Part shown: in pieces, positions 10,588-63,900 of the stretch
Numbering within the stretch: position 1 is the first letter of the stretch
How the letters are laid out: each line of letters begins with the position of its first letter
Program-made: the position numbers and the translations under genes
From: Macrocystis pyrifera
Lineage: Eukaryota > Sar > Phaeophyceae > Laminariales > Laminariaceae
Direction: 5' to 3'
DNA length: 64,000 bases
Assembly: GCA_031763025.1 (NCBI GenBank)
Contig: JASSKH010000042.1
Location: forward strand, 496,001 to 560,000
The notes under the pieces: model-generated
Told to the model about the DNA's origin: nothing
Database searches by the model: none
What the model saw: only the letters and a program-made list of their open reading frames with translations

Positions 10588-13500
10588 ACAGGTGTGCTTT
10601 AGGTAACATGGTTTTCTGAATTTCGCATGTCACCGGTATGGTTGTCATTTTTTTAATGCGTCTTTCTCTGGGGATGTTTTTTATCCGTCCCCCCGGGGTT
10701 TTTTTCCAAGAGCCCCCGTTTTTTAGGTCACTTGCGGCAGGCAGCATGGTTTTCTGACTTTCACATGTTGTCGTTATATAGGTAAGTAACAACCGCCGTC
10801 CGTCACTGCCTCCCTCCTTGCTGTAGCTGCGTATGAACATGTAGTCCTATTACGAGTTGCGGGCGAGATATCGTCGGCATTCAAACATGGTTTACAGTCA
10901 CACTTTTGCACATCCGCATTTGTTACCATACCCATCGCTCATCATGCACGACTAATCCCACACTATCCTTGTCTCCGTTGCCAGGTGTCAGCTGTCGATG
11001 AGGGAGAGTTGAAGTACTTCTTGGAATGTCGTAAAAGCGTTAAATCCAATCCCAATTTGAATAGAAAATCGTTCGTTCTTCACGCGCAAATATTTACCAA
11101 TATGTGTGCAAAACACACGGGCTGACCTTTGCAGCCCGGACGAGCGATGCCACCAGATCTTCCACGTCCCGACTGGTCGACTGCGCCTGACCCCACGACG
11201 CTTGGCTGCTGGTCGTGGTGCAGGTGATTCTAGCGTTGTAAAATGCCCGGTTGCAGCAACCTAGTCTGGAGTTGTCGGGCCACGGCAGTGACTCAATCAC
11301 CGAGCGATGGGCATCCTCTCCCCAGGAGATAGCTTGGGTTGCCATGCTATTTAGGAGGCGTGAGAGAGCTATCGGAGAAGGCGGAGCTCGGCAAACAAAG
11401 ATGAAAGACCACGGCTTGGGTGTGGCACAGACGAAAAATGAGGAGCTGTCACAGGTACAGCTGGCACGCAGCAGGCAGCAGGCAGCAGGCAAGGGTGTGT
11501 GTCACGTGAACAACGGGGTCGGAAGGTCTGCCCCCCGTACACTAAACGCCTCATTATTCTGAGTGCAACTCCCTTCTGATCCAACACCCGGCAAGACGGA
11601 ACAGCACACTATCCAAGCCTGCGTCTGAGTGCGAATCTCCTATACCCTTTCGACACTGGATAGTGCCATACAGTTATGCCCGACTCGCCACCTCCCAGGT
11701 GCGAAAACTGCAAACCCGGTGAGGCCACGGAGGAGCGAGAAACAGCCGTGGCAGACTCGGGATGTCAGGAAACGTACGGGTTTGTCGTGAGCTGTATGGA
11801 GGCACATAGAGGGAACGTGGCGGATTGCGGGAGGAGTGGCAGGCTTTCAGGGCGTGTCACAGCAGTAGCGCACGGAAGAAGTCGCAATCTATATGAGAGG
11901 CCACGGCTTGAATAGCATGAGCGAGTGATATGTTGTTTGCGAACTGCGTACAGGTGGTGCATCTGCTGTGTCGTGCTGCTGTGTATGTCGGTGGTGCAAC
12001 TGCCATATTTCGTGCTCCTGTTCTTGTCGATGTCCTCCCTCCTGTACGTACGTAAGTTCAGGCTTGGACATACATGTGGACGACGTATCACACCAACACC
12101 GAGTCTGTGCGTACGAATTTGTCGCGCACACCCACCTGATGTGGTGTAATACAGTTGAGCTTAGCTGAACTGCCGGCGAGCTGCTGCGCTTGGCCCTGTT
12201 GGCACCATCGCTTGAACATGCGCCCGCTTTGAGTCGGCCGTGTTCACCACAGCATTTATTTGCTGTGCTCATCGTACTACCACAGGTGCAGTAATACGAA
12301 GTACCTGGCACGAGTATCACTGCTGCTGTGTACAGGTGGAATAACCGCTGTAGTCAGTAGCGACGAGTTGGTTAGGTGTGGGAACGGGGGACACTCTGCC
12401 TGGTATGCTGAAGTTGAGTGGATACCCGCGGCCATGTTAGTTCAGTTTGCACATTGATTTCATTTTGTGTGCGCCTTCTTCGTCTCGTGTGTTTTTATGT
12501 GGGAAGGCTCGTGCTTCCTATTATTGAACGAATTTTGATATTTGCCTGGTATGGTTTTTCGGATGTTCCTATCAACAGGGCTCCAGCACCTTCGTGTGAC
12601 AACGGACTCCTTGATTTGAGAGTTACCGTCACCCAAATAATACCGATCGGAACGAGACGACGCGTTGTTATTAACAGTTGCCTTGGGATAGGGGTGCTAC
12701 CCTGCCTCAGGAGATTTTGTTGTCCAGTGTCCTCCACCCCGGATTTTGGGCGGTGAGCTCCCGGGCAAAGCGCATACCGGGTATGATACACCATGGCACC
12801 TGGTGTGCGTACAACAGCATTAATTATGTAGCACTGCAGTACATCGTACTGCTGTAGTGCTCATACGTACAGTAGTTTCTCTACGAGTAGTGTTGCCCGA
12901 TGCACGGAGCGCCAGAGCGCGGCAAGGAGCTGCGTAAAGCTGCCGCACTGCGGGCTGTGTGTATCGTCGCATATACCCAGAGTACGTGCTGTATTGATAG
13001 CGCAGAAGGGAATCAGCCGCGTGGGTTGATTTAGATTGCCGGTACTCGAATGGCCCTTTTACCTGCCCTACTGTACATAAGAGTAGATAGAGTACTGCAG
13101 GTCGTATTCTTGCCCTTGAAGCCTGGGATAAGTTGGTGTCCACTTCTGTCCCCTGTCCACTGCTGTCGGTTTTGCGACGTTGAAGTCCCCGAAACGAAGT
13201 ACAACACCGGTATGGTACGTCCGTCGATCGTTCGGTCGCTCGGAGTTTTGTATTTTGTTGGCGACCTTGAGCCGCCTTCGTCGGTGGCGCCGTCGCTCGT
13301 CTAGTTTTTTTGTGTAGTGCCAAAGGCATACACACCAGGTCTACCAGGCACTTCGTGTTGTGGTGAAGCGCTACAGCGTGCCTTCTGTCGCGTGCTTTTG
13401 ATGCCTACATACCAGGTACTGGTACATACGTACGTATATCTACCGGATATTTTGCGTTTAGAATTGATCGAGGTCTGGCTCAGGCACGCGCGATGAGTGA

Positions 13501-60900: not shown

Positions 60901-63900
60901 GACGTGTAAGCCATAATGTCCGATAATCGGTTTCATGCACAAACTACTTGGAAGGGCCTAGCATGGGTAGTAGACGTGTATTTCAACGCGAATCGACAAG
61001 GGAAGAAAGTGCTAAACTATTCTCGCGGATAAAAAGGTAAGCCACGTGCGGTAGTAGGGGGGGGGGGGGGGGAGAAGAGTCTATTATGTGACCCAATGGT
61101 TTATCTGAGTTGCGGCTATTACGGGGGTCCATAGTAAATAGGATCAAATACTTTCAGTAAAAATAAGTAAATGTATAGGTTTTTATGTAAGCCATAGGTC
61201 CTATTAACTATGGACCCCCGTAATAGGAGGCAGAGAGAAAAAAGAAGGGCAAACATAGTACCTGGTAAATGAGATGGACAAATATAATAAAATAACTGAA
61301 CTGTAAATTTTGTTGGCTGGCAAGGACAGTTGTTGAGGTCTTAATCCGTCGGGTCACTGGCAAAAGGTTAACTAATCGTCTTCTCAATCTAAGCCTTATA
61401 ACACAGCCTACAGCATTCTAATCAGTCAACGCTGGCTGAATATGCTGGTAGGTTATCTTTTTGGTAAGTTCTAACCAACACGGAGTCTTTTTTGTCTTGG
61501 GGGTGGATGGATGTTGCACACTCTCGACAAACACAAAGCAGTGGAACGAAATTTACCTGTTTGACGAAAACGATGTGCACGGTGCCATGGCAGAGACCGA
61601 CCGCAATGAGGGGCTGAGGTCCGTAAGACGCCATGGCGCACACCGGGACCGGCACGTCGCCTGTTCTCTTCGTTGTCGTCGTCGCGGGACCCTCAATTCT
61701 GTCGTCGAGCGAGGCCTTCCTGCCTTCCTCAGCGGCTTCGTCTAACTCTTCCGGGCTAGAGAAAGCCGAGAATGTTCGCGTACCACACAGCTTCCCTCTG
61801 GCGGCAGTCCACGCTCGGATGGAGCCATCCTCGCCTGTCGGCACAAGCAAGATGTGGGCACAAATATGTTTATACGCCTTTTGTTCATGTTGATTGTTTG
61901 AGAGGTGTTGGTAGTGTCCATTGGGCACCATGTGGTGATGGTTTTTCCTTCAGGTACGTTTGTTCGGAGGAGTACCAGCATAATACTACTTTAATATCAA
62001 CTGCTTCCATGTACGCTGATTGACGACGACTGCAGTTCAACAACCGTTACATGCACGTCTGCAAAATACCCCCGCCTTCCTTAAATCCCAAGTAGTTTTC
62101 CCCCGATAACACATGGGTGCGGCAATTACAACAACGACCACCATTTGTGTGGGAAATCTACAACTTCACCCACTATCACCGCAGGATTGATTCCACTCTA
62201 ATTCCCACAAGTAGTTTGACCCCCAAACATGGGTACAGTGAATTCGAAAAGCGGTAATAATGACGTCGCAAAGTTTCAGCGAGAATAATAGAAGCCTTAC
62301 CATTGAGATTTTTTTCGCTGAGAATCAAAACCGAAACGTAGGCGTCCCTCGCAAACCCTTAACAACCGCAAAAAAACACATCCCACGCCAATTCCACTCA
62401 CTTTTGTCCGCATAAACGCAGGGTTCAGCTCTAAAGGGATTGCATCCAATTTTACTCACCTGACCGGTGCTACGGCTCAGGCAGGGGTTTGCCTTGATTA
62501 TAGTATAATAGCCCAAATATTTGTCACTGCCGGAGCTCATCAACCGAACACCAAGCACCATATGATAGCTGTACCAACTATGGCTGGATCAAATGTATCA
62601 CGCTAGGCGTGAACAGAAGGACTGCTTAGTATGAATACCGATGTCTGAACCGTCCTTATGTTTCGAGCCAGATTGGTATGAGGTACACCCTGGTAGGTTT
62701 TTAATATTTTTCGTTTGGTGCCCACCAGGTTGTTTATCGGGCCTACTGCCGCAGCTTACCCCCCTGGACGAAAATATAAGGAAAGTTTATACATTCATAC
62801 TAATATCGAACGGACCATACATTTACGCGCAGAGTGGTATGTTATATATATATTTATTAAGGTTGCTGATAGGTCCCCAAGTGAGTCGCCTCAGAAAATG
62901 TACCAGAATACTACAGAGAAAGCTGGCTCCAATCGTATCCCCGGCCACCACTAACAAAATCTCGAACAAAACCTCCAACAAAAGCTCGAACAAAACAAAA
63001 CAAACAAACAAAAAAACAAGGCCACGGCTTACCTCCCGTCACGAGAACACCGCCGGATGCCTCCATGACTTCGGTTGATAACGGGCGAAGGCAGCTTAGA
63101 GCCACGACCTTCCCGGTGTGAAACGTCCTCAGGGAGTTCACCCCGCTAGCAGGCATTCCTGGCTCGGCCGTATGCCGCTCAATGTCCACGAAGATGCTAT
63201 GAAGACTGTATATTCCAGCCGTGTAGACAGAACCAACACACGAGTTCCCGGATAGTGCGAGCGGGGACGGCGAAAAATACTTGGGGGGTCATATCGAGAC
63301 CGTTTCTGACCAGTTCGACGGAGGAGTATCAATTTAGGGTATCGCGGTGCCATCACGCTGGAGCACACGGTCATGTCGGGGCAACACGACGATTAGCTAC
63401 AGTAGTCTAGCAGGTTGTCCCTTTTGCCAACCAGCAAATTCGCGGGGCATCACTCTTCGGCGGCGGTCTTCTTTTTTTTGTGAGAGTAAGAAAAGGCAGG
63501 AGAAGGCAAAACGCCCGTGAGAGGGAACCAACGCCGAAACGTGAGGCGAAGCAAAAAAGAAGGTTCCAGGCACTCAACAGGCGCGAAAAATGACTTATTG
63601 TCTGCGTTACCTTCCGTTTGACGAGCCCACCACCATCTTGTCGTACAAGGGACTACAAGCCATCGCAACAGAGGGGCAAGGATCTTTGTCATCGCATCGA
63701 AGCTGAATGCTGAACTCCACCTGAGAAAGAGAACGGCAACATCGCCGCGAATTTGAGAGCCACCAAGGAGGTTAACAGGACAGGTTAAGGTACTTTCCCT
63801 CGCACGGGTCGTATATTTATGGCGTTGAGAGTGAACGCATTTCTTTTGAAATTTGATGCGGGGGTGTAACACCCTACGGCGTCGAGTGTCGCGCTAATGG

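Follow-up and report, generated by a model that had tools for sequence, protein, structure and literature searches.

A nine-base palindrome in the kelp Macrocystis pyrifera as a short insertion at TA, probably left by an excised DNA transposon

The window, a 64,000-nucleotide stretch of the Macrocystis pyrifera genome assembly (C132:496001-560000; assembly of 537,376,219 bases in 223 contigs), raises the question of why the palindrome TACCWGGTA, with A or T as its central base W, recurs there so often and what kind of sequence it is. An earlier note on this DNA had reported 15 perfect copies, and all 15 were recovered with their start positions, when 100 dinucleotide shuffles of the window averaged 0.41 copies and never gave more than 3. 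Genome-wide, the pattern occurs at 121,279 places versus 2,421 for a reversed control pattern (50-fold), which corresponds to one copy per 4.4 kb and lies far from the background expectation that the note had proposed as a check. The excess is real, and far stronger than the window alone could reveal. As judged from aligned paralogues, TACCWGGTA is a short insertion, TA to TA-CCWGG-TA, at the sites that could be compared.

Further counts were made in a sample of 237,922 bases, comprising the window and loci L005-L022, which were picked for convenience, are non-random and cover <0.05% of the genome; about 201 kb of genome letters were read beyond the window, L002 and L004 were left out of the sample as overlapping L001 and L003, and the latter two were left out of the k-mer counts. 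The sample has 44 copies of TACCWGGTA where a third-order Markov model predicts about 1.9, and the motif ranks first of the 384 types of odd 9-bp palindrome seen (44 copies, next 30) and first among TA-X-TA strings with an X of five bases (CCWGG 44, next 19). With an estimated 30.4 million TA dinucleotides in the genome, extrapolated from this non-random sample, about 0.4% of TAs carry the unit. The form with a six-base residue, TACCATGGTA, numbers 2,743 genome-wide versus 911 for its control, only a three-fold excess, so the unit between the TAs is mainly CCWGG.

Self-comparison of the sample placed motif copies opposite gaps in related repeats, and an indel list compiled blind to the motif included the 14-bp TACCAGGTACCAGG, which at L007 5067 is present in one tandem copy and absent from three others. 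The same list contained 5-bp insertions yielding TACAGTA and TACTGTA and others yielding TACCGGTA and TACCCGGTA, all within the scar-like sizes of 5-7 bp. In a paralogue test each site was aligned both as it stands (filled) and with the unit removed (empty). A usable paralogue was available for 10 of the 46 motif sites, and eight of these ten matched best as empty. As a control, 743 other TA-N5-TA strings of the same sequence were treated alike; 223 had a paralogue, with 23 best as empty and 200 as filled (Fisher p = 1.5e-6, and 2.7e-7 after six control rows that overlap the motif or are its one-mutation forms were dropped).

The comparison was extended to the whole genome with the joined flanks without the unit as query, two of the 46 sites (L005_6741 and L005_8578) being left out. 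The 15 window sites returned 24 matches, i.e. 15 self-matches and nine others, the latter for two sites; for the other 13, no paralogue was found among the genome matches listed. At 61259, six of six paralogues read lacked exactly 7 bp while their flanks aligned, and hence the motif was absent where the flanks were retained, the reverse of persistence amid diverging flanks for which the note had proposed to look. At 23715, three of three paralogues read were shorter by 9-14 bp, and this insertion perhaps stems from two events.

For 16 sites from other loci (40 of 2,462 candidates scored), the matches listed comprised 48 rows, of which 10 had the empty length, 35 the filled length, and three did not span the junction. 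Nine of the empty-length rows belonged to L014_3275 and one to L014_5742, and the filled-length rows included one self-match and four belonging to L014_3275. Thus L014_3275 has nine listed empty-length copies of 94-97% identity beside four of filled length; five of the nine were read, all without CCWGG. When L014_5742 is compared with C163, exactly TACCTGG is missing from the latter, the alignment of 99 columns otherwise differing by one substitution and one 4-bp gap. Thirteen further sites (40 of 291 candidates scored) gave rows only for the four in L001 and L003, and among the matches listed 59 of 60 had the filled length and one, on C101 for L003_1501, the empty length. Small contigs such as C1, C45 and C65 appear to carry multi-copy arrays; along these, identical pairs of motifs come back at intervals of about 400 bp, or doubles at intervals of 9-20 kb.

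The fifteen sites of the window are as follows.

13410..13418, strand., TACCAGGTA, exact match; CTGGTA adjoins, a possible second imperfect unit
13595..13603, strand., TACCTGGTA, exact match
17532..17540, strand., TACCAGGTA, exact match
17864..17872, strand., TACCAGGTA, exact match
21237..21245, strand., TACCTGGTA, exact match
23715..23726, strand., TACCTGG and TACCG before TA, perhaps a compound insertion, from paralogue comparison
27406..27414, strand., TACCAGGTA; two weak paralogues within the window align without the unit
27715..27723, strand., TACCTGGTA, exact match
29372..29380, strand., TACCTGGTA, exact match
30242..30250, strand., TACCAGGTA, exact match
54061..54069, strand., TACCAGGTA; counter-example, the L019 paralogue holding a different sequence of equal length
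56674..56682, strand., TACCAGGTA, exact match
57508..57516, strand., TACCTGGTA, exact match; TACCTGA adjoins
58496..58504, strand., TACCTGGTA, exact match
61259..61267, strand., TACCTGGTA; 7-bp insertion ACATAG[TACCTGG]TAAATG by paralogue comparison

The statement that none of these copies falls in an element family had to be given up, as 23715 and 61259 lie in repeats with other genomic copies, and for 27406 and 54061 the sample contains weaker paralogues. In agreement with the same note, the motif is not one dispersed transposon or miniature inverted-repeat transposable element (MITE) family: the 48 contexts listed share no flanking sequence beyond a target preference. Neither do the copies form a single alignable repeat family, and some have been multiplied by later duplication. 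The Mutator-like element (MULE) named there is present, with a PF10551 transposase domain (E 3.4e-14) at window positions 6149-6664 on the + strand. Five of the six near-matches pointed out earlier have a copy with a single mismatch no more than a few bases away (three by transition, one with a central C, one by transversion); at 38270, a one-transition copy sits 8 bp to the left.

Once the unit is taken out, the palindromic target YR-TA-YR emerges from 88 oriented flanks of the 44 sample sites. One-mismatch neighbours of the motif, off-centre and on both strands of the sample, comprised 51 transitions against 15.7 expected and 26 transversions against 29.5, and the window alone gave 22 transitions and five transversions. 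Mutated copies are thus mostly transitions, the pattern expected of neutral decay.

The units also stack in 7-bp steps throughout the genome, with 5,620 doubles, 351 triples and some quadruples, the control giving 0. By their central bases, 1,409 doubles read A-then-T and 609 T-then-A, the former order being 2.3 times commoner, and by subtraction 3,602 are like pairs; independent stacking would give 25%, 25% and 50%, respectively. The first 50 triples in assembly order, sorted by eye, comprised 22 AAA/TTT, 22 AAT/ATT, six ATA/TAT and no TAA/TTA, so that 44 of 50 are uniform or have A first and T last (four quadruple runs count twice here). The excess of like pairs could come from slippage or from local repair bias. 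A long terminal repeat built of CCAGGTA units was considered as a possible source of the order bias in doubles and triples.

Most copies of TACCWGGTA are probably the scars of a DNA transposon that inserted at TA and was later excised. A TA-targeting cut-and-paste element (Tc1/mariner/pogo-like), the terminal repeat of which would start with CCWGG (or CCAG/CCTG), would insert and duplicate the TA, as Tc1/mariner insertion does. Excision would then leave a few terminal nucleotides on each side, and repair would join them as TA-CC-W-GG-TA. In the scar of Sleeping Beauty, TAC(A/T)GTA (TACWGTA), the 3-nt overhangs CAG pair with an A:A mismatch in the middle; in the kelp, 3′ overhangs CCAGG and CCAGG would be the 5-nt analogue, annealing with one central A:A mismatch that repair would turn into A or T. 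Such annealing would account for the central W and for the scarcity of the six-base form tested. With self-annealing ends, rejoining would also be uniform and cheap, a possible reason why one scar dominates and has accumulated to its present share of TAs. We infer both the source element and its overhang steps. Repeats starting with CCA and cut unequally, at three and two bases, were set aside as fitting less well than annealed 5-nt overhangs, because TACCATGGTA, the product of 3+3 bases, is only three-fold enriched. Pairing of neighbouring motifs as MITE ends (13410/13595, 17532/17864 and 27406/27715) was likewise rejected, the inner sequences being unmatched by eye and no inverted repeat being listed at the ends.

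Several observations weigh against an insertion at TA followed by excision. Two motif sites matched best as filled, i.e. window 54061 and L005 3164, the latter site being common to a neighbouring tandem copy, and 52 of 223 control sites had at least one paralogue favouring the empty form, versus 8 of 10 motif sites. Among the matches listed, only filled-length copies were found for two sites in L001, two in L003, L014_1944, L015_780, L015_8186 and L016_2780, save the single empty copy for L003_1501; the filled copies of L001 and L003 are uninformative on insertion, since these sites lie in multi-copy arrays, mostly on small contigs, and their units were probably copied together with their surroundings. 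Half-sites TACCWGG show little excess beyond chance and decay, by arithmetic on the sample counts. The doubles are non-random, and simple repeated excision leaves the AT/TA bias unexplained. None of the 58 TA-flanked inverted pairs in the sample starts with CCWGG, although so small a sample of the genome could overlook a parent present in less than a few thousand copies. Profile searches returned 0 matches in the genome for PF13358 and 0 for PF01359, the control for the latter being likewise silent. Finally, at 5 bp the residue is longer than the 2-4 bp given for Tc1/mariner in the accessible part of PMC7913693, residues of 0-3 bp for ZB and 0-4 bp for Passer being reported in the accessible parts of the sources (PMC7913693, PMC9976928). 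With the parent missing and the residue above the published range cited here, membership of the Tc1/mariner type is unproven.

An obvious alternative is that the moving unit is itself tiny, a TA-specific activity inserting the 5-7-bp CCWGG or TACCWGG directly, with no longer element. The dominance of one scar type, the 7-bp stacking with its excess of identical neighbours, and the lack of a parent element in the sample would all suit it; however, a long parent may be rare or lost and so escape a sample of this size, and we know of no enzyme that directly inserts a unit of 5-7 bp at TA. We regard this as unlikely. The suggestion of the earlier note that the motif might be the footprint of a very small mobile unit came close, in that the motif, where related sequence without it was found, behaves as a short insertion at TA and fits a transposon footprint. 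The tandem doubles, triples and quadruples could instead point to a repeat-adding process, telomerase-like addition or replication slippage of the 7-mer TACCAGG, which would seed units and expand them, and with like neighbours in 3,602 of 5,620 doubles slippage may well be responsible for some of the surplus of like types. As an origin of the motif such a process is improbable: 121,279 places stand against only 5,620 doubles, the units sit in fixed phase between two TAs, partial units being scarcely in excess, and the AT doubles hold units in opposite orientations, which slippage does not give.

A selected palindromic site for binding, methylation or chromatin, of the kind known as highly iterated palindromes (HIP), had also been proposed in the note. 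The motif is a perfect palindrome in strong genome-wide excess, and its CCWGG core resembles the Dcm/EcoRII methylation site. Nevertheless, some paralogues, including a nearly identical one, differ from the filled sites by an indel of exactly 7 bp and so have no motif, and where the motif has mutated the changes are predominantly transitions, which neutral decay would also produce. As the origin of the motif, a conserved binding or methylation site was ruled out at the sites compared by these exact 7-bp empty sites, and for the genome at large we consider it very improbable. Overall, the interpretation given in the note was partly supported.

Excision scars thus being the favoured explanation, the motif may be set beside known systems. 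Like the footprints of Tc1/mariner elements (Sleeping Beauty, ZB, Frog Prince) and of the pogo-type Passer, it combines insertion at TA, a TA on both sides and few bases between; unlike them, it has a residue of 5 bp, mainly of one type, in >120,000 copies, with no parent found in the sample. HIP1-type palindromes of cyanobacteria are likewise short and in great genome-wide excess, but the kelp copies arise by insertion, decay, and belong to a eukaryotic nuclear genome. The internal eliminated sequences of Paramecium, retained elements of presumed Tc1/mariner origin that are cut from the somatic nucleus, share the TA boundaries, whereas the kelp shows only scars. For ZB, a preference for palindromic AT-repeat targets is described in the accessible text of PMC7913693, comparable to the palindromic YR-TA-YR of the kelp. 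A comparison of two rice species, as far as its accessible text goes, gave 94 putative excisions, of which eight were perfect, the others carrying deletions or fillers (PMC4423477). These too are traces at former transposon sites found by sequence comparison, but the kelp scar is uniform and hugely numerous, the two counts differing in measure (two-species comparison in rice, motif count in kelp).

As to resident transposases, 39 matches to the PF03184 DDE_1 (pogo-type) profile were found in the genome. A DDE_1 element was tried as the scar parent and set aside: L023 and L024 have a common stretch of 959 bases, 72% identical, over the transposase region, and the sequence compared showed no recognisable CCWGG end. 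The DDE_1 copies inspected seem to belong to large elements, the ends of which lie beyond the sequence compared, and could not be tied to the scar. L024 and a sister copy on C202 are 99.6-99.8% identical over the approximately 4.3 kb compared, within a 4.8-kb span in which no end was reached, and the large element (L024, L045, L042-L044; C194, C202) carries an array of approximately 160-bp tandem units on one side and GGGTC repeats on the other; by its sequence, it looks recently active. In the brown alga Ectocarpus, the accessible part of PMC12477816 gives 17 Mariner-Tc1 families with about 11,900 copies.

Other short motifs and elements were observed alongside. TACAGTA and TACTGTA number 94 in the sample where 39 would be expected, and TACGTA and TACCGGTA likewise exceed expectation. 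Since a number of the TACAGTA, TACTGTA and TACCGGTA copies represent insertions of 5-6 bp within repeats, other transposons may have left scars of their own. The sample also contains many copies of a repeat family whose inverted ends read CTATTACGGGGG...CCCCCGTAATAG (window 54827-61226, L013 3673-4039, L022), and the frequent palindromes TAGGWCCTA and TATTAATA may belong to it. A 0.75-kb element with ends AGGGCCRYTCCTAACGAA adjoining TTA was seen at L006 1362-2207 and in L014, L015 and L023, about 90-99% identical between loci, and is perhaps PIF/Harbinger-like by its 3-bp target.

In the open literature covered, which comprised titles and the openings of abstracts, with most subscription journals and all of bioRxiv outside it, we found no account, among the entries listed, of the motif in kelp or of scars in such numbers. 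A text search of papers for the letters TACCTGGTA matched 109, and the 20 listed look unrelated; TACCAGGTA was not searched for. What is new compared with known scars is the length of the residue and the scale, and the striking point is the abundance of one single scar type. It is possible, and we put it forward tentatively, that a TA-targeting transposase of brown algae makes its cuts 5 nt within the element ends, leaves self-annealing CCWGG overhangs and excises cleanly and frequently, with scars (>121,000) far outnumbering surviving elements and amounting to a fossil record of transposition across the genome, or else, more radically, that the moving unit is a few bases long. Counts of cut-and-paste transposons rest on their remaining copies, and a jump of which only the scar survives usually goes unseen. 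If the motif is indeed an excision scar, >120,000 excisions of a single kind could be counted in the kelp genome and dated approximately. From such a tally one could estimate directly how often excision occurred, which targets were chosen and how the breaks were repaired over evolutionary time, and kelp populations would gain 7-bp polymorphic markers.

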